Under the pieces are notes generated by a model, which searched no databases, was not told where the DNA came from, and worked only from the letters and a program-made list of their open reading frames with translations. A program made the translations under genes and the position numbers. Positions 756-63,450 of a DNA stretch of 64,000 nt are shown piece by piece. Source of the DNA: Myxococcales bacterium (GTDB lineage: Bacteria > Myxococcota > Polyangia > Nannocystales > Nannocystaceae); contig JAEUJW010000101.1 in NCBI GenBank assembly GCA_016793465.1, positions 62,001 through 126,000 on the forward strand. The letters run 5' to 3'. How positions within the stretch are numbered: the first letter of the stretch is position 1; each line of letters starts with the position of its first letter.

Positions 756-1799
756 CTACGGCGGCAGCGCCCGCGCCTTGACCACGCGGATGTCGCTGGC
801 CGACAGGTGACAGACGAGCGCGTCGCCGACCGCGAGCGTGTCGGTGCGGCGAAACTTGTGGGTCGGCGGCTCGCCCTTGCGGCGCAGGCCGACCACCGCG
901 GCGTCGAGGTGCTGCTCGGCGTCGAGCAGCGTCTTGCCGACCAGCGGGCTGCCGGCGTCGACGTCGACCTGCACGCTGACCATCACCGTGTCGCCGAGGC
1001 GGTAGGCCCCGAGCACGCGCTCGTCGAGCGCCGCGGCCGCGAAGATCGGCGCCGCCAGGGCCGACGTCGAGAACGTCGAGTCGACCGAGAACGCCTTGCC
1101 GAGCTTGTGCGCGACCGTCTGGTCGAAGAACCGCATGACCAGGCGGATCTTCGGGTTGATCTGCCGCGCGTCGATCGCGACCTCGAGGTTGGCCAGGTCG
1201 TCGTTGGTGCAGGCGATCACGCAGGCCGCGTGCTCGATGCCGAGGTCGCGCAGCAGGCTCTCGCGGCGGGCGTCGCCGATGACCAGCGGGACCCCGCGGG
1301 CGCGCGCCTCCTCGACGAACTGCCCGCCGTCCTTGGACTCGACGCAGATGACCTGGCGCCCGCGCGCGAGCAGCTCGTCGAGCACGCGGAAGCCGACGTG
1401 GCCGAGCCCGATCAGCACGATGTGGTCGCGGTACGTGTCTGCCATGATGTGCACCCAGGCGGTCCGGTGGTTATTAAAATCCAGCAGCGAGGTCCCGATC
1501 TTCAGCACGCCCTCGGCCAGCACCAGCGCGCCGACGAGCGGCACGGTGAAGTACATGACCCGCAGGATCCAGTCGCTCGGCAGCCCGCTCGAGTGCTCGA
1601 AGAACAGCTGGGTGTAGACCTGGTAGCAGGCGGCCACGAAGTCGAGGTTCTGGCCGGGGTCGCGCCACTGCAGGCTGAGCCCGCCGATCACCAGCAGCGC
1701 CACCAGCACCAGCACGCGCGGGGCCAGCAGCCGCGCCGCGTACAGCATGAACCGCAGGCGCGCGCGCAGCGGCGTCCGGATGCGGTTCGGGGCGGCCAT
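756..1799 (-). CDS. Ion-channel-like membrane protein with TrkA-N and TrkA-C domains, no canonical selectivity filter
   Basis: A 347-residue protein with a transmembrane helix near residues 20-42, a pore-like loop, a second helix near 85-105, then a Rossmann RCK/TrkA-N domain (GLGHVGFRVLDEL is the dinucleotide-binding loop, about residue 131) and a TrkA-C domain to the end. The layout matches two-TM RCK-gated potassium channels, but the segment between the helices has no TxGYGD filter (it reads roughly FFEHSSGLPSDW). Ion selectivity is therefore doubtful. Related CASTOR/Pollux-type or TrkA-domain proteins are alternatives. An AT-rich patch (GAT TTT AAT AAC, D-F-N-N) sits at 1471-1480. Confidence 0.7.
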   Translation of the reverse strand: MAAPNRIRTPLRARLRFMLYAARLLAPRVLVLVALLVIGGLSLQWRDPGQNLDFVAACYQVYTQLFFEHSSGLPSDWILRVMYFTVPLVGALVLAEGVLKIGTSLLDFNNHRTAWVHIMADTYRDHIVLIGLGHVGFRVLDELLARGRQVICVESKDGGQFVEEARARGVPLVIGDARRESLLRDLGIEHAACVIACTNDDLANLEVAIDARQINPKIRLVMRFFDQTVAHKLGKAFSVDSTFSTSALAAPIFAAAALDERVLGAYRLGDTVMVSVQVDVDAGSPLVGKTLLDAEQHLDAAVVGLRRKGEPPTHKFRRTDTLAVGDALVCHLSASDIRVVKARALPP

Positions 1800-7343: not shown

Positions 7344-8561
7344 TCAATCGCGGGGCCCGTCGCGGCCGTCGCGGCGGTCCTCACGGCGCTCCTGCAGGCG
7401 GGGCAGCAGGTTGTCCTTGATCCCGCCGATGCCGAGGATCAGGAGGTCGTCGCCGCTGAGGCCGAGCTGGGCCCCGAGGTCGACGTTCCACGCGCGGGTC
7501 GCCCCCTCCCACAGCCCGAGCTGACCGACGTTGGAGGCGCCGCGGAAGTTGTCGCGCGCGAGCTGGACCGTCGAGCGCACGCGGATGTCCGGACCCAGGC
7601 GGGTGATCGCCGCGGCGATGCGGCTCGCCGGCATGTTGCGCCCGCCGTCGCCGGGCGGTGCGATCTGGAAGTCGTGCAGGCGCAGCGCGACCTCCAGCGC
7701 GACCAGGGTCGGGTCCTGGCTCTCGAGACAGGTGATCGACACGTCGACGTCGCCGCTGCGGATCCAGCGCCCGGCCGGGCCGAGCTTGTGCGCCGCCGGC
7801 CCGAGCGGGATGTCGAGCGCCCGCCAGGACCCGCCGCCGGCCGCGAACCCGTAGCCGCGCGCCTGCCCGCGCGCGTCGCTGCGGCACAGCACCCCGAGCA
7901 TGGCGTCCTCGCTGCGCAGCGGGCCGACGTTGAAGTGCTCGAAGCGGATCGGCAGGCTCTGGAACGGCGCGCCGATCTCGTCCTCGAAGCGCACGTCGAT
8001 GTCGGTCAGCTCGACGCGGTCGACCGCGAACGCGTGGTAGGGCCGCGGCGCCGGCCCGCCGCCGCGGCGGACGATGTCCCCGCGCACGCCGTCGACCCGC
8101 ACCAGCTCGAGCGGCACCTCGCGGCGGAAGATCTTCGTCATGTCGACGTCGAGCACCACCTCGCGCACCGCCAGCGAGAACTCCGCCCCCGGGCCGCCGC
8201 GCCGCGCCGTCACCCCGGTCAGCTCGAGCCGCCCGGTGAACACGCTGCCGCGGGCGCGCTCGAAGCCGATGTCGATGCCCGAGCGCTGCTCGACCTGGTC
8301 GAGCGCCAGCCGCACCCCGGTCTCGAACAGCAGCAGGTCGACCAGCACCAGCCCCGCCAGCACCAGCCCCAGCACCGCCGTCGTCGTCCACACGAAGCGC
8401 CGCCACCAGCGGACCAGCAGCGGCCGCGCGCTCGACCGCGGCCGCACCAGCGCCGTGCCCACGCCGAGCACCAGCACGCCCAGCGCCTCCACGCCGAGCG
8501 CCAGCGCGGCCAGCAGCGGCACCGTCAACAGCTCGGCCACGACGAGCAGCAGCGACTCCAC
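7344..8561 (-). CDS. AsmA/DUF748-like inner-membrane protein
   Basis: A 405-residue protein. The N-terminus has hydrophobic segments at about 1-22, 24-42 and 58-80. The rest is beta-rich with alternating motifs (IGFERARGSVFTGRLELTGV, LELVRVDGVRGDIVRRG) characteristic of AsmA-like and DUF748 proteins, which form long beta-groove lipid-transport or envelope-assembly structures. A role in envelope lipid homeostasis is inferred from the family only. It ends 31 bp from the start of the minus-strand lipoprotein gene 6509-7312, and could lead a two-gene operon with it. Confidence 0.6.
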   Translation of the reverse strand: MESLLLVVAELLTVPLLAALALGVEALGVLVLGVGTALVRPRSSARPLLVRWWRRFVWTTTAVLGLVLAGLVLVDLLLFETGVRLALDQVEQRSGIDIGFERARGSVFTGRLELTGVTARRGGPGAEFSLAVREVVLDVDMTKIFRREVPLELVRVDGVRGDIVRRGGGPAPRPYHAFAVDRVELTDIDVRFEDEIGAPFQSLPIRFEHFNVGPLRSEDAMLGVLCRSDARGQARGYGFAAGGGSWRALDIPLGPAAHKLGPAGRWIRSGDVDVSITCLESQDPTLVALEVALRLHDFQIAPPGDGGRNMPASRIAAAITRLGPDIRVRSTVQLARDNFRGASNVGQLGLWEGATRAWNVDLGAQLGLSGDDLLILGIGGIKDNLLPRLQERREDRRDGRDGPRD

Positions 8562-9923: not shown

Positions 9924-12900
9924 TCAGCGCGGCGTGGCGCAGACCCGCAGGCCGATCGCCCCCGCGTGCGCGAGCGCGTCGACGGCCCCGCGGAACTCGA
10001 GCGAGCTGCCGAGCATGTCCGAGACGTAGGCCCCGCCGCGGACCAGCCGCTCGTCGCCGCCGCGCCCGGCCGCGACCCACTCGAACAGGTTGCCCGCGGC
10101 GTCGCGCAGGTCGAACGGGCTGTCCGACGCCGGGTGCGAGCCGACCTCGTCGGGGCCGCGGCTGGCGACGTCGCGGGCGTGCGGCCCGGCGAAGTTGGCG
10201 TCCTCGGGGTCGAGCCGCGCCCCGCCCGGGTAGCTGCGCCCGTCGGCCCCGCGGGCCGCGTACTCCCACTCGAACTCGTTGCACAGGCGCGCCCCGGGCA
10301 CCCGGCCGCTGCGATCGAGCCACTCCACGTACGCCTCCGCGTCGGCCGGCGTGAGCCCGCCGACCGGCATGCGCGACCAGTCGTGCGAGGCCCGCGTGGC
10401 GCGCCCGGGGTAGACGAACGGCTCGCCGCTGCGGGTCACGATCGTCGCCTCGCCGCGCGGCACGTGCAGCTCCCACGCGCCCGGCCCGCGGTCGACCAGC
10501 GTCGGCACCCGCGCGCTCGCCGGGTCGGCGAGGTAGCGGGCCCGCTGCTCGGGCGCGAGGTCCTCGAGGAACGCGATCCACTCGCCGTAGGTCGTCTCGT
10601 GGCGCGCCACCAGGAACGCCGGCACCGTGACCTCGTGCAGCGGCGCCGCCGCGAGCGAGCCCTTGCGCAGCGACTCGGCCGCGCCCGTGCCGTAGAGGAA
10701 GCGCCCGCCCGGCACGTGCACGAAGCCCGCCGGCACCCGGCTCGCCGGCAGCAGCGCCGGGCTCACCGTCGGCCGCTCGCCGCGGCGCACCAGCACCGGC
10801 ACGTACGCCCGCGCCAGCCCGTCGGCGGTGAACGTGAAGCGGTACGAGCCTGCCGGCAGCTCGAGCTCCTGCAGCGGCGTGACCCCGAGGTCCCGCGCCG
10901 ACGAGCGTGTCAGCCGCCCGCCCTCGCCCTCGGCGTACGACTCGACGGTGACCCGCGCGCCGAGCGGCTCGCTCGTCACCGTCAGCACCGCCGGGGCCTG
11001 CCAGCGCGCCAGGCGGTCGCCGTCGTCGTCGTACAGCGCGGCCCGCTCGATCAGCGCCTCCGCCTCCGCCGCCTGCCCGGCCTGCTCGGCCAGCAGCGCC
11101 CGCTCGTAGAGCACGTCGGCCAGCGCCTCGCGCACGTCGGAGCGCTCGCCGTCGATGCCCAGCGCCGCCTCGAGCTCGCGCGCCGCCGCGTCGTGGTGGT
11201 GGGCGATCGCCGGCGCCTCGGCCAGCGCCCGCTCCCACGCCGCCTCCCCGCGCGCCGCGTCGCCGGCGTCGAACGCCGCGAACGCCTCGGCCCGCAGCCC
11301 CGCGACGTCCCCGGCCAGCGTGCGCGCCGCCGCCAGGTCGTCGGCGGCGGCGGTGCGGTGGGCCGCGATGCGCTCGTCCTGACCTGTCCTCTGGGTCATG
11401 TACAGCCCGAACAGCCCGGCGGTGGCCACCAGCGGCACCGCGGCGATCGCCAGCCGGCGCAGCAGCACCCGCCTGCGCGCGCGCGCGCGGCTGGCCGAGA
11501 GGAACGTCAGCTCGCGCAGGCGCAGCGAGCCCGCGTCGACGAGGTGGGCCCCGGCCAGCTGCTTGGGCTGCCACAGCAGGTCGCCCGGCCGACCGTCGCG
11601 CTCCCACGCCGCCGCCGCGGTCTCGAGCTGGTGCCGCAGCAGCCGGCCCTCGCGCTCCTCCTCGAGCCAGATCTTCAGCGTCACCCACCCGCGGATCAGC
11701 GCCTCGTGGGCGATCTCGTGGACGATGCCGCCCGGCACGTCGCGCACGACCAGCAGGTGCGCCGCGATCAGGGCGTCGAGCGCCGCCTGGTCCTCGTCGC
11801 AGCTCACCAGCTCGTCGGACGTCAGGCTCGCGCGCGTGTCGTCGACCGTCACCAGCCGCAGCAGCAGGCCGCGAGCCGCCCGCCGCGGCCCGGCGTCGAG
11901 GCGGGCCAGCGCCGCGTCCGCGTGGCGGGCCAGCGCCCCCGAGACCCCGCCGATGCGCTCGAGCGCCGCCGCCGTGATGATCGAGCTGTCGGGCTCGCGA
12001 GCCTCCCACAGCTCCGCCAGCGCGAACTGCAGCAGCGGCAGGCTGCCCTCGACCCCGGCGGTGACCAGGCGCTCGACCAGCTCCTCCGATTCGAAGTGCA
12101 CCTGCTGCGCGTTGGCCGGCCCGACGATCGCCTCGCGCACCGCGTCGATGCTGAGCGGCAGCAGGAAGCACAGCGAGCGCGGCAGCTCGGCCCCCAGCCC
12201 CGGCAGCTGGGCCAGGCGCGTCAGGAAGTCGCCGCGCACCGTCGCCACCACGCGCACGCCCGGGTGCCCGGCCGCCAGGCGGACCAGCAGCGCCGCGGCC
12301 TCGGCCGCCTCGCTCGGCTCGGCCAGCGTGACCAGCTCCTCGAGCTGATCGACGAGCAGCACGAACCCGCGGCGGCCCGCCTGGGCCCGCCGGATCTCCC
12401 GCTCGAGCTCCTCGTGCGGGTCCTCGATCGACGCCGAGATCGACGCCGAGCTGGTCCCGAGGTGGCGCGACAGCGCCGCGATGATGCTGGTCAGCGGGTG
12501 GCGCCCCGGGGTGATCGTCGCCACGTACCAGTTGCTGGTCGCGTCGAGGATCCCGTCCTGCAGCAGCGGCAGCACGCCCGCGCGGCACAGCGACGACTTG
12601 CCGACCCCCGAGTCGCCGGCCACCACCACCAGCGACTGCGCGCGCAGGCGGTCGATCACCGTCTGGATCTCGGTGCCGCGCCCGAAGAACACCTCGCGGT
12701 GCTCCGCCTCGAACGCCCGCAGCCCGCGGTACGGGTTGCCCGCGTGGGTCGCCGCCGCGTGGCCGGCGTTGACCGCCGCGCTGAGCGCCTCGAGCGCCAG
12801 CCGCAGCTCCTCGCCCGAGGCGTAGCGCTCGCTCGGCCGCCGGCGCACGCAGCGGTCGAGGATCGCCGCGAACCGCGGGTCGACCCCCGCCACCCGCTCG

Positions 12901-16987: not shown

Positions 16988-18169
16988 ATGAGCAACGCAG
17001 TCCACGTCATCGGGGTCGGCATGGTGAAGTTCGCCAAGCCCGGAGCCAGCGACGACTACCACGTGATGGCCGCCGGCGCCGCGCGCACGGCCCTGAAGGA
17101 CGCCGGCGTCGACTACCGCGACATCGAGCAGGCCTTCGCCGGCTACGTCTACGGCGACAGCACCTGCGGTCAGCGGGCCGTCTACGAGCTCGGCCTCACC
17201 GGCATCCCGGTCGTCAACGTCAACAACAACTGCTCGACCGGGTCCACCGCGCTGTTCGCCGGCCGCCAGGCGATCCTCAGCGGCGAGGCCCAGTGCGTGC
17301 TCGTCGTCGGCTTCGAACAGATGGAGAAGGGCGCGCTCGCCTCCAAGTTCAACGACCGCCCGACCCCGCTCGACCCGCAGGCCAACCTGATGAACGAGCT
17401 CCAGGGCATCAACAACGCCCCCGGCGCCGCGCAGATGTTCGGCGGCGCCGGCCGCGAGTACCGCTGGAAGTACGGCACCAGGCGCGAGACGTTCGCCAAG
17501 ATCAGCGAGAAGGCCCGCAAGCACGCCGCCAAGAACCCGTACGCGCTGTTCAAAGACGTGCTGAGCGTCGAGGAGATCCTCGCCTCGCCCGAGGTCTTCG
17601 ACCCGCTGACCCGCTACCAGTGCTGCCCCCCGACCTGCGGGGCCGCGGCCGCCGTGCTCTGCTCGGCCGAGTTCGCCAGGAAGAAGGGCCTGCAGAACAG
17701 CGTCACCATCGCCGCCCAGGTCATGACCACCGACTTCAGGTCGAGCTTCGACGACAAGAGCATGATCAAGATGATCGGCTACGACATGGCCAAGGCCGCC
17801 GCCGACAAGCTCTACGAGAAGGCCGGCCTCGGCCCCAGGGACGTCCAGGTCGTCGAGCTCCACGACTGCTTCACCGCCAACGAGCTGCTCACCTACGAGG
17901 CCATCGGCCTGTGCCCCGAGGGCGAGGCCGAGAAGTTCATCTGGGACGGCGACAACACCTACGGCGGCAAGTGGGTCACCAACCCGTCCGGCGGCCTGCT
18001 CTCGAAGGGCCACCCGCTCGGCGCCACCGGCCTCGCCCAGTGCACCGAGCTCGTGTGGCAGCTGCGCGGCCAGGCCGAGGCCCGCCAGGTCGACGGCGCC
18101 CGCGTCGCCCTCCAGCACAACCTCGGCCTCGGCGGCGCCTGCGTGATGACGATGTACCGCAAGGACTGA
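16988..18169 (+). CDS. SCPx-type thiolase / lipid-transfer thiolase
   Basis: A 393-residue thiolase of the sterol carrier protein X class: NNNCSTGS contains the nucleophilic Cys, with [14 protein letters not shown] and [14 protein letters not shown] near the C-terminus carrying the His and glycine-rich loop. The family cleaves 3-ketoacyl-CoA, including 2-methyl-branched and sterol-side-chain intermediates. It lies 49 bp after the MFE-2 gene, so the two very likely form an operon carrying out the last three steps of the beta-oxidation cycle. In animals SCPx is thiolase fused to SCP2; here the SCP2 modules sit on the neighbouring protein instead. Confidence 0.93.
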
Positions 18170-30016: not shown

Positions 30017-30101
30017 CGGTAGGTTGAGGAATCGAACCCCCAGGATCTCCCTGCCACCCTCGCCCTCCAAGCGAGTCGTTACCCCTGTAACGGAACCCAC
30101 C
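30017..30101 (-). tRNA. tRNA-Ser(GGA), noncanonical 8/4-type cloverleaf, copy 1
   Basis: An 85-nt gene. Acceptor GGTGGGTT pairs with AACCTACC over 8 bp (one G-U), discriminator G, no encoded CCA. CC is followed by a 6-bp D stem (CGTTAC/GTAACG) with a 4-nt AGGG loop. Anticodon stem CTCGC/GCGAG with loop TTGGAGG gives anticodon GGA (30066-30068). A variable arm CAGG-GAGAT-CCTG and a T arm of only 4 bp (GGGG/CCTC) with loop TTCGATT follow. The long variable arm and G73 suit SerRS. A canonical 7/5 fold would need a G49-A65 mismatch. Confidence 0.8.
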
Positions 30102-30164
30102 AACCGTCTCCCAACGGTCCTTTAATTATTTTAATGAATAATTGGATCAAACATCGGCTCCGAA

Positions 30165-30249
30165 CGGTAGGTTGAGGAATCGAACCCCCAGGATCTCCCT
30201 GCCACACTTGGCTTCGAGGCAAGCTGTTACCCCTGTAACGGAACCCACC
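30165..30249 (-). tRNA. tRNA-Ser(CGA), noncanonical 8/4-type cloverleaf, copy 2
   Basis: An 85-nt gene nearly identical to copies 1 and 3 outside the anticodon arm. Acceptor GGTGGGTT/AACCTACC, 5-bp D stem GTTAC/GTAAC with AGGG loop, anticodon loop CTCGAAG giving CGA (30214-30216), variable arm CAGG/CCTG and a 4-bp T stem. The innermost anticodon-stem pair is C-C, unlike copy 1. The CGA anticodon reads UCG. No 3' CCA is encoded. Confidence 0.8.
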
Positions 30250-30340
30250 AGATTGTCGCGCACCATTCGCCGCTCGCCCGCCTCCTTCCCCGAGACCCCC
30301 CGCGAGGCCCCGTGAGCACGCACTGCTCCACGAAAATAAA

Positions 30341-30425
30341 CGGTAGGTTGAGGAATCGAACCCCCAGGATCTCCCTGCCACGCTTGGCTTCGAAGCAAGC
30401 TGTTACCCCTGTAACGGAACCTACC
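30341..30425 (-). tRNA. tRNA-Ser(CGA), noncanonical 8/4-type cloverleaf, copy 3
   Basis: An 85-nt gene with a perfect 8-bp acceptor GGTAGGTT/AACCTACC, two-nucleotide CC linker, 5-bp D stem GTTAC/GTAAC with 4-nt loop AGGG, anticodon arm GCTTGC/CCAAGC with a C-C inner mismatch, loop TTCGAAG and anticodon CGA (30390-30392). Variable arm CAGG-GAGAT-CCTG, T stem GGGG/CCTC, discriminator G. This copy is the strongest case for the 8/4 fold because all eight acceptor pairs are Watson-Crick. Confidence 0.8.
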
Positions 30426-30607: not shown

Positions 30608-30622
30608 GAATATGTAGATGAG

Positions 30623-30709
30623 CGGAACGGGCGAGATTCGAACTCGCGATGGCATCACACCACTGCCTGTTCTCCAAACAGGTGCCATGGACCGCTAGGC
30701 GACCGTTCC
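30623..30709 (-). tRNA. tRNA-Ser(GGA), canonical
   Basis: An 87-nt class II tRNA: acceptor GGAACGG/CCGTTCC, U8 present, D arm GCCTAGCGGT.., anticodon stem CCTGT/ACAGG with loop TTGGAGA (anticodon GGA at 30673-30675), long variable arm, T arm GCGAG-TTCGAAT-CTCGC, discriminator G. It shares its anticodon with noncanonical copy 1. Only three nucleotides separate it from the upstream Ser(GCT) gene. Confidence 0.95.
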
Positions 30710-30712
30710 AGA

Positions 30713-30799
30713 CGGAGGGAGCGCGGATCGAACGCGCGCAGGTCGTGAGACCCGTCCACGGGTTAGCACCCCGGAGCCTTACCCCTCGGCCACCCCTCC
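30713..30799 (-). tRNA. tRNA-Ser(GCT)
   Basis: An 87-nt class II tRNA: acceptor GGAGGGG/TCCCTCC with one G-U, U8, D arm GGCCGAGGGGTAAGGC, anticodon loop GTGCTAA (anticodon GCT at 30765-30767) on a 4-bp GC stem with a C-U outer mismatch, variable arm GGTC-TCAC-GACC, T arm GCGCG-TTCGATC-CGCGC. It is the first gene of the minus-strand serine tRNA run. Confidence 0.93.
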
Positions 30800-31200
30800 A
30801 GAACTCCGCACGGACGACCCACCCGGGGCCGTGGCGCCGCTCGCAGGCCCTCAGCCCCGCGAACTCGACCACCGCCGCGGACGGCCGTAAAGCGAGCTCA
30901 CGAACTGGAGCGTGACGAGCCGACGCCCGACGAACTGGACGAGGAGCGGCGCGCCTGGGACAGGCCGACGGTCTCGACTCGAGCAGTGTGGTTGGCGTTC
31001 ATGATGGGAAGCTTCTTACCACCCACCCGCGCAGCTCGTCAAGCCGATATCCACCGAGTTTGATAATTTTTGTCGCTACCCACTGCGAGCATTCCACGGG
31101 TTCGGGCGCGCGCGCGAATGTCTGCACATTGCCGGCGCGCCGGGCCCCGCGGCCGCCCGCCGTTGCGTCCCCGCGGCCGAGGTGCGACGCTCCTCCCTCG
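30800..31200. other. Intergenic region between the tRNA run and the lysyl oxidase gene
   Basis: 400 bp without a supported gene. It must contain the minus-strand promoter of the tRNA run and the plus-strand promoter of the lysyl oxidase gene. AT-rich stretches occur near 31010-31080 (including GATAATTTTTG), but I could not fix clear -35/-10 pairs. A short open stretch near 30895-31065 has no start codon or family resemblance. Confidence 0.5.
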
Positions 31201-62006: not shown

Positions 62007-63224
62007 TCACGGCTTCCAGCAGTAGTTGATGCTCGTGCCCTGGTCGCAGTGGTCCATCACGTACGCCGAGTAGGCGCAGCCCGGGCCGCCGCAGTCGTAG
62101 GTGACATTGACCTTGTAGTCGTCGTCCTTGGGCGTCGCGCAGAACTCTCCGTCGCCCCAGCCGCTGACGTAGGCCGTGCCGCTCGGGGTGTCGGCCTCGA
62201 TCGAGCACACGTAGTCGCCGGCCATGCCGCCGAAGATCTGCGCGCACGCCTCCTTGCACGAGTACGTCGGCGGGTCCTCGTACCACGCCGGCCCCGAGTG
62301 CACGTCGTACTGCCCGACCTTCAGCACCACCCGCACGCAGTCGTTGCTGCAGCCGTCGTTGTCGATCACGTTGGCGTCGTCGCACTGCTCGACGCCGGCC
62401 TGCACGAACCCGTCGCCGCACTCCGCCTGCTTGCAGCCGGCCACGCAGGCGTCGTTGTCGTCGGCGTCGCCGTCGTCGCACTCCTCGACCATGTCCTGGA
62501 CGATGCCGTCGCCGCAGATCGCCAGCACGCACGAGCTCAGGCACGCGTCGGTGTTGATGGCGTTGGCGTCGTCGCACTGCTCCGGCTCCACCACCATCAT
62601 GTCGCCGCAGCCCGGCATGGCGCACGCGTTGGAGCAGCCGTCCGCGTTGTTGTTGTTGCCGTCGTCGCAGGCCTCGCCCGGCCCGATGTTGCCGTCGCCG
62701 CACACCCGCGGCGTGCAGTCGGCCCGGCACGCCCCCGTCGGCGAGTTCTGGGCGCCCGCGTCGCACGTCTCCACGCCGACGTGCACGAACCCGTCGCCGC
62801 AGCTGGCCGCCACGCAGCCCGGCAGGCACTCGTCGCTGACGTCGACGTCGCCGTCGTCGCAGTCCTCGCCCGGCTCGACCACCCCGTTGCCGCAGGCGTA
62901 CGTCTGGCACAGCCCGCCCACGCACGACAGCTCGCCCTCGCAGCCGGACCCGCACGGGCACAGCAGCGTGCCCGCCGGGCACTCGCCCGAGCCCGCGGTC
63001 TCGGGCGTGGCCGTGGTCTCCCCGCCCGGCAGCCCGGTCGACGAGCTCTCCCCGGTCGTCGACCCGGTGGAGTCGGGGGCCCCCGTGGTGGTGGTCTCCA
63101 TCATCGGGGCCGTCGTCATGGGGACCGGGCCCCGGCTGTCACCGGTGAGCTCCTCCCCCCGCGCACACGCGGACATCAGCAAGACCCACGCGAGCAAACG
63201 CGGGCGCACCGGCGAACCTGCCAT
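62007..63224 (-). CDS. Lipoprotein with Myxococcus cysteine-rich (DUF4215-like) repeats
   Basis: A 405-residue lipoprotein; the ATG at 63224 gives lipobox LLMSAC. A Thr/Ser/Gly-rich stalk is followed by about six CGDGx..GE.CDDGN....DxCxxxC repeats (for example CGDGNIGPGEACDDGNNN, CGDGFVQAGVEQCDDANV), then a C-terminal module with CKEACAQIFGGMAGDYVCS and a terminal CWKP. The repeats are typical of myxobacterial surface proteins. Likely a cell-surface adhesion or binding protein, based on composition. Convergent with the previous gene. Confidence 0.88.
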   Translation of the reverse strand: MAGSPVRPRLLAWVLLMSACARGEELTGDSRGPVPMTTAPMMETTTTGAPDSTGSTTGESSSTGLPGGETTATPETAGSGECPAGTLLCPCGSGCEGELSCVGGLCQTYACGNGVVEPGEDCDDGDVDVSDECLPGCVAASCGDGFVHVGVETCDAGAQNSPTGACRADCTPRVCGDGNIGPGEACDDGNNNNADGCSNACAMPGCGDMMVVEPEQCDDANAINTDACLSSCVLAICGDGIVQDMVEECDDGDADDNDACVAGCKQAECGDGFVQAGVEQCDDANVIDNDGCSNDCVRVVLKVGQYDVHSGPAWYEDPPTYSCKEACAQIFGGMAGDYVCSIEADTPSGTAYVSGWGDGEFCATPKDDDYKVNVTYDCGGPGCAYSAYVMDHCDQGTSINYCWKP

Positions 63225-63450
63225 ACAGGCCACGTTGCCCGGCGAACGCCGGTCTGGCAAGCCGTCGCGGCCGCCGCTCGCCTCGCCGTCACGCGCGCCG
63301 AACGCCCGCAATCGCGACGTAGACCGCCAGCAATTCCGTGGATTCTGCGCGAACCGAGACATGCGCACATGTGCACGCATTACACCTCACTATGCGTCCC
63401 ATAGCGCGCGTTTGTTGGCCACGAGCCCCCCGCGGTCTACTGTTGGCCGG

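Follow-up and report, generated by a model that had tools for sequence, protein, structure and literature searches.

The stretch of DNA that was analysed (64,000 nucleotides, referred to below as the window) carries a single minus-strand run of six serine tRNA genes, and no other tRNA was found in it by using ARAGORN. In transcription order the anticodons are GCT, GGA, TGA, CGA, CGA and GGA, and the last three genes (A3, A2 and A1, respectively) have an 8-bp acceptor stem and a 4-bp T stem (8/4). The genes are listed below; R3 is an 8/4 covariance model built from 24 members outside of the window alone.

30017..30101, minus strand: A1, 8/4 tRNASer, anticodon GGA; D stem of 6 bp with a 4-nt loop; called by ARAGORN; R3 60.8 bits
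30165..30249, minus strand: A2, 8/4 tRNASer, anticodon CGA; C31-C39 mismatch; no ARAGORN call; R3 57.9 bits
30341..30425, minus strand: A3, 8/4 tRNASer, anticodon CGA; C31-C39 mismatch; no ARAGORN call; R3 60.1 bits
30520..30607, minus strand: ordinary tRNASer, anticodon TGA, adjoining A3 on its upstream side; called by ARAGORN; R3 41.6 bits
30622..30709, minus strand: ordinary tRNASer, anticodon GGA; called by ARAGORN; Rfam tRNA 53.2 bits
30711..30800, minus strand: ordinary tRNASer, anticodon GCT; called by ARAGORN; Rfam tRNA 40.7 bits

The coordinates, the 85-nt lengths and the anticodons of A1-A3 agree with the original prediction, and all three genes lie on the minus strand. In alignment they are near-identical, with differences confined to column 4 and to columns 25-44 (the anticodon-arm region). 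The acceptor stem is complete from pair 1-84 to pair 8-77 (8 bp), with position 4 being A-U in A3 (30341-30425) and G-U in A1 and A2. The D arm reads GTTAC-AGGG-GTAAC, which matches the proposed 5-6-bp stem with a 4-nt loop, the sixth pair (C10-G25) being present in the GGA gene A1 only. The V stem (CAGG/CCTG) belongs to a long variable arm, and the T stem (GGGG/CCTC) has 4 bp including one G-U, so that the acceptor stem, T stem and variable arm are also as had been proposed. The discriminator base is G (G73) and CCA is not encoded. In both CGA genes (A2 and A3) the anticodon loop is closed by a C-C mismatch at 31-39. A scan for sigma-70-like promoters, of a type ill-suited to this phylum, was negative.

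An ordinary 7/5 fold (7-bp acceptor and 5-bp T stem) had been said to demand a G49-A65 mismatch, and this mismatch is real in each of the three genes (columns 61 and 77), leaving the 7/5 T stem mismatched. These could still be ordinary 7/5 serine tRNAs in which U8 happens to match A65: each gene alone can be drawn as 7/5 with the one mismatch, and U8 is the usual base at its position. Because such a match might arise by luck, a single sequence was insufficient and relatives were collected. Two search patterns that left positions 8 and 65 free yielded 39 viral-contig loci, which correspond to 34 distinct tRNAs (the other five loci being identical copies). Positions 8 and 65 were paired in 32 of the 34 (GC 12, UA 9, AU 8, CG 2, GU 1), against a shuffle mean of 14.6, and none of 10,000 shuffles reached 32. 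The 7/5 pair 49:65, in contrast, was paired in 15 of the 34, which is chance (shuffle mean 15.1). Sorted by class, 19 tRNAs paired at 8:65 only, 13 at both and two at 49:65 only. An earlier count of the 7/5 pair (4 of 25) was biased, given that most alignment rows had been picked for an absent 49:65, and the test on 34 tRNAs is the fair one. By this covariation, the 8/4 fold is not an accident of U8.

The 24 members from outside of the window were hand-chosen as 8/4; in their alignment the acceptor stem (eight pairs) and the T stem (four pairs) were complete throughout, and the pair closing the acceptor stem (8:79) was GC in 14, AU in six and UA in four. Two alignments had a G-U wobble at the second T-stem pair from the acceptor (24 of 25 members in one, 23 of 24 in the other); for many rows the search patterns imposed it, but the window genes and model-found rows have it as well. 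D arms were compared between 41 genes that pair as 8/4 only and 91 serine genes that pair as 7/5 only. The 41 genes came from loci L081 onwards and from the window, after two rows (one false cloverleaf and one tyrosine-type tRNA) had been removed by hand. A best D hairpin of at least 5 bp with a 4-5-nt loop was present in 38 of the 41 and in 3 of the 91; the script takes the best hairpin and favours long stems, a bias that the 7/5-only control answers.

Scoring and energy pointed the same way. A comparison of canonical and 8/4 covariance models had been suggested as a check that could refute the original prediction, and its outcome favoured that prediction: R3 gave 57.9-60.8 bits for A1-A3 versus 41.6 and 30.5 bits for the ordinary TGA and GGA neighbours, and the generic Rfam tRNA model (RF00005, not specific to tRNASer), with a cut-off of 29 bits, left A1-A3 unreported. 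Under a fixed energy model, each gene favoured the 8/4 over the 7/5 form by 4.0 kcal/mol, a gap that includes one V-stem pair given up by the 7/5 form as drawn; the predicted probability of pair 8-77 was 0.74 in A1, 0.62 in A2 and 0.63 in A3. A1-A3 therefore depart from a canonical tRNASer both in the G-A at 49:65 and in energy, and they combine the covarying 8-bp acceptor and 4-bp T stem of an 8/4 tRNASer with a serine anticodon, a long variable arm and G73. The ordinary 7/5 reading was already disfavoured and is, with homologues retaining 8:65 as GC, AU, UA or CG, very improbable.

8/4 serine tRNAs of bacteria and their phages were reportedly treated by Mukai et al. (2017, NAR, doi 10.1093/nar/gkx013), and the kind has probably been described already. 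Shared with it would be the 8-bp acceptor, the 4-bp T stem, serine identity and carriage by phages, the last of which was also found here (below). The window differs in its setting, which is a serine cluster of a Nannocystis relative with three tandem copies and two anticodons.

The original prediction had likened the three genes to tRNASec and to allo-tRNAs. Bacterial tRNASec is given as 8/5 in PMC8450103, and with it A1-A3 share an 8-bp acceptor, a long D stem with a 4-nt loop and a long V arm (PMC8450103 and PMC7609411). They differ in a T stem of 4 rather than 5 bp, hence a branch other than the 13-bp 8/5 one, and in anticodons other than UCA. Rfam tRNA-Sec was the best Rfam family for the three genes, with scores of 33.7, 31.4 and 32.9 bits, under its cut-off of 47. 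The allo-tRNAs (8/4 or 9/3) have, according to PMC7609411 and PMC7590224, the 12-bp branch that A1-A3 show in its 8/4 form, as well as a long variable arm and serine identity features; a long D stem, too, is stated there for the 9/3 members. Most described allo-tRNAs carry non-serine anticodons (for another amino acid or a stop) according to PMC7609411, unlike the serine anticodons of A1-A3. The likeness thus stood for the 8/4 form and the long D stem and fell for membership in tRNASec (8/5, UCA); allo-tRNAs are nearer in architecture and do not agree in anticodon. On the best reading, A1-A3 are neither tRNASec nor typical allo-tRNAs.

A selenocysteine or allo-type recoding tRNA, placing a non-serine residue at serine codons or handled by SelA, would accommodate the Sec-like D stem with its 4-nt loop and the rank of tRNA-Sec among Rfam families. 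The branch of 12 rather than 13 bp, the CGA and GGA anticodons in place of UCA and a tRNA-Sec score well below cut-off speak against it, and we hold such recoding to be most unlikely.

Other carriers of 8/4 serine tRNAs were sought with R1 (an 8/4 model made from A1-A3) in 317 genomes of the class. Matches were obtained in a 35-tRNA contig (L119/L130, 62.5 bits, the best R1 match) and in a 26-tRNA stretch (L120/L131, 47.5 bits). Position 8 is A facing U in the gene of the former and G facing C in that of the latter; the L119/L130 gene is not decisive alone because 49:65 also pairs there (G-U), and some relatives, including this one and L160, can be drawn both ways. The L130 contig encodes a terminase, an integrase, an HNH protein and a phrog_850 RNA-binding protein, and L131 encodes an HNH protein and phrog_850, which we take to be a Ro-type protein. 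Further array or phage-like contigs are the viral contig L149 and L160, with its gene pairing both ways. With a viral-contig 8/4 gene as query, 133 phage records were matched, 126 of them named Mycobacterium phages, and in the two that were read (Yucca and Rey) the CGA genes pair as 8/4 only.

Within the phylum, 377 Myxococcota genomes were searched with R2 and 106 had matches, of which many were ordinary serine tRNAs; 15 of the 28 new loci that were put through the pairing script held at least one serine gene pairing as 8/4 only. Tandem GGA, TGA and CGA genes, all 8/4, were found in five genomes (the Polyangium genomes of L017, L020 and L064, plus G285 and G289); for the Polyangium genome of L016 the resemblance is in score only. 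The rows of G284 and G285 include a fourth gene, GCT, which pairs neither as 8/4 nor as 7/5. By sequence and predicted fold, A1-A3 are members of a wide group of phage and array 8/4 serine tRNAs, a group absent from the original prediction.

Compared with tRNA array units (PMC5966550 and PMC12803027), several of these 8/4 relatives likewise sit in arrays, two of them with HNH genes (L130 and L131). The window differs in having six serine tRNAs with no other tRNA found, and no HNH among the ORFs queried.

Three single genes were also observed. A tRNASer(CGA) at 12401-12550 (plus strand) of L149 (IMGVR_UViG_3300048591_001682), 8/4 by eye, has about 65 extra nucleotides with a strong hairpin in the T loop between GTTC and GACTCC, possibly an intron or an insertion at an unusual place. 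A tRNA-Asp(GTC) at 8254-8326 (plus strand) of L130 can likewise be drawn as 8/4 (D stem 5 bp, loop 4 nt) and has A at position 8, so 8/4 may extend beyond serine in this array. In Mycobacterium phage Rey (L201, 1499-1627), an 8/4 tRNASer lies under hypothetical protein gene 113, where no tRNA is annotated and ARAGORN was silent.

As finders overlook such genes (ARAGORN detects only A1 of the three, the Rfam tRNA model none), 8/4 tRNAs are probably under-counted. An exact pattern of the window D arm and T loop had no match in the genomes and viral contigs, the 801-base cluster had none in phages at E 1e-5, and a viral-contig 8/4 tRNA had none in plasmids; one tRNA searched against phages and plasmids at E up to 10 gave partial matches only, covering at most 46% of the query.

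In a tree of 38 serine tRNAs, one branch (93/91; 92% of 200 bootstrap trees) had all 24 of the 8/4 rows to the same side. A1-A3 grouped at 100/99, with the viral-contig CGA genes L179 and L177 as neighbours within a mostly viral CGA group; the forks near A1-A3 are weak (83/60 and 87/81). Given the short genes, the modest support and a bootstrap that had not settled, the tree supports kinship with the phage and array kind and names no donor. Its Yucca row was two bases too long. By pairwise alignment score, A3 was closest to L165, a viral-contig gene of the same CGA group (71% identity). The second-best score of A1 was with an ordinary GGA gene (G027), consistent with a swap of the anticodon arm, and the body common to A1-A3 suggests that the change from CGA to GGA came after duplication.

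The window organism is, on sequence similarity, a myxobacterium related to Nannocystis. Its GCT gene (30711..30800) is 88-89% identical over about 90 bases to the serine-cluster GCT stretch of five Nannocystis genomes, a lipid-transfer thiolase (16988-18169) has 85-86% identity with seven Nannocystis loci, and a protein with a myxobacterial cysteine-rich repeat is encoded at 62007-63380. The corresponding cluster is GCT-GGA-CGA in six Nannocystis genomes, GCT-GGA-TGA-CGA-Tyr in G026 and G027, and GCT-GGA-TGA-Tyr in G014; in the window, the 8/4 genes follow GCT-GGA-TGA, at the place taken by an ordinary CGA gene in G026 and G027. The best R1 match in 29 genomes of the family was 41.9 bits, versus 111-112 for A1-A3 (the source of R1). 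Those family matches that were read were 7/5; no close relative with 8/4 genes, and no direct donor, was therefore found. Gene order around 30 window genes was compared with nine loci, five of them around serine clusters of relatives (L101, L102, L108, L132 and L133; the Nannocystis clusters L134-L139 were left out), and showed no common neighbour except for kinase-domain matches in L133.

All nine related genomes read (G002-G007, G014, G026 and G027) have an ordinary GGA-CGA pair outside of the cluster. A TGA gene also lies outside of it in six of the nine, and a GCT gene in all four tested; in the seven genomes where pairing was checked, the genes apart from the cluster are all 7/5. The window cluster is thus, judging from these relatives, most likely a second (accessory) serine set, with the 8/4 genes as extras and not the sole CGA decoders. 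The idea that they replaced an only CGA tRNA was dropped on this account; it is also countered by carriers that have ordinary genes elsewhere in the genome (TGA, CGA and GGA in G284 and G285) or ordinary CGA and GGA genes beside one 8/4 CGA gene (G184).

Serine codons were counted in 35 window ORFs (16,687 codons; n = 855 serine codons: TCG 360, AGC 330, TCC 146, TCA 9, TCT 7, AGT 3). UCG is the commonest and UCC the third commonest, so extra CGA and GGA genes match demand. Starting from the comparative 8/4 fold, the sequence kinship, the place at the end of an ordinary serine run and this codon use, we consider it probable that A1-A3 are horizontally acquired extra serine decoders, charged by SerRS, in an accessory cluster, copied in tandem and with one CGA changed to GGA. 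We infer the capture and its direction, and also that the cluster is accessory in this genome. The ancestor would have been an 8/4 tRNASer(CGA) circulating in phages and tRNA arrays, captured into the second serine-tRNA cluster of a Nannocystis-like myxobacterium; tandem copying would have followed, and then the anticodon arm of one copy would have changed. The genes would be transcribed and receive CCA; the ordinary SerRS would charge the tRNAs by way of their long variable arm and G73, and EF-Tu, to which an acceptor branch of still 12 bp should be suited, would carry them. CGA would then read UCG, and GGA would read UCC and UCU, all as serine, raising UCG and UCC decoding capacity with no code change required. 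According to PMC7609411, efficient serine insertion was seen in E. coli with two expressed allo-tRNAs, one of them 8/4 and the other 9/3.

The three genes might instead be decaying remnants of a captured mobile tRNA array with little role in translation. Both CGA copies have the C31-C39 mismatch, and the minimum-energy fold of A2 is not a cloverleaf, its D-stem pair 11-24 having a predicted probability of 0.05, so that a decayed copy is possible; with the ordinary GGA-CGA pair elsewhere in all nine relatives, the extra genes could also be dispensable. However, all three copies retain intact acceptor, D, V and T stems and differ only in column 4 and columns 25-44, and A1 is a complete cloverleaf with another serine anticodon, which makes decay an unlikely account of the set.

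Compatible with acquired extra decoders, and not exclusive of them, is a role as nuclease-resistant spares, whose unusual body would sustain serine decoding when a phage or defence system cuts ordinary tRNASer. The 8/4 kind travels in phages and arrays, and tRNA arrays are termed a putative antidefense system in PMC12803027. Against this, no nuclease target is known here, and Pfam or NCBIfam queries (40, covering 37 different window ORFs) turned up no phage or defence gene, the sole defence-named matches being kinase matches below cut-off; we regard the role as improbable. More broadly, and as a doubtful extrapolation, 8/4 tRNASer might form a parallel serine-decoding system that moves among phages, arrays and myxobacterial chromosomes, here settled in a host cluster in place of an accessory CGA gene and extending to further serine codons through altered anticodons. 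The cause would be the escape of its body from the tRNA-cutting enzymes of defence systems or toxins. On the preferred reading of acquired extra decoders, a bacterial serine cluster would have taken in a non-standard tRNA architecture, seen here chiefly in phages and arrays, and an anticodon would have changed there; A1-A3 offer a concrete system for asking what the 8/4 body is good for.

Some further features of serine and neighbouring tRNA genes were observed. The ordinary Ser-GGA genes of the window (30622-30709) and of Nannocystis (L139, 1377-1461) group at 94/90 in the tree, and their D arm is one that we take to resemble that of tRNAGlu. In G317, a gene at 893-980 (plus strand) of L281 was given a four-base anticodon (ggaa) by ARAGORN and adjoins a normal Ser-CGA gene; a second near-identical gene pair elsewhere in this genome carries a normal GGA. 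Finally, a 1.3-kb run in Nannocystis poenicansa (L294, G004) holds ten tRNA-Leu and tRNA-Tyr genes.
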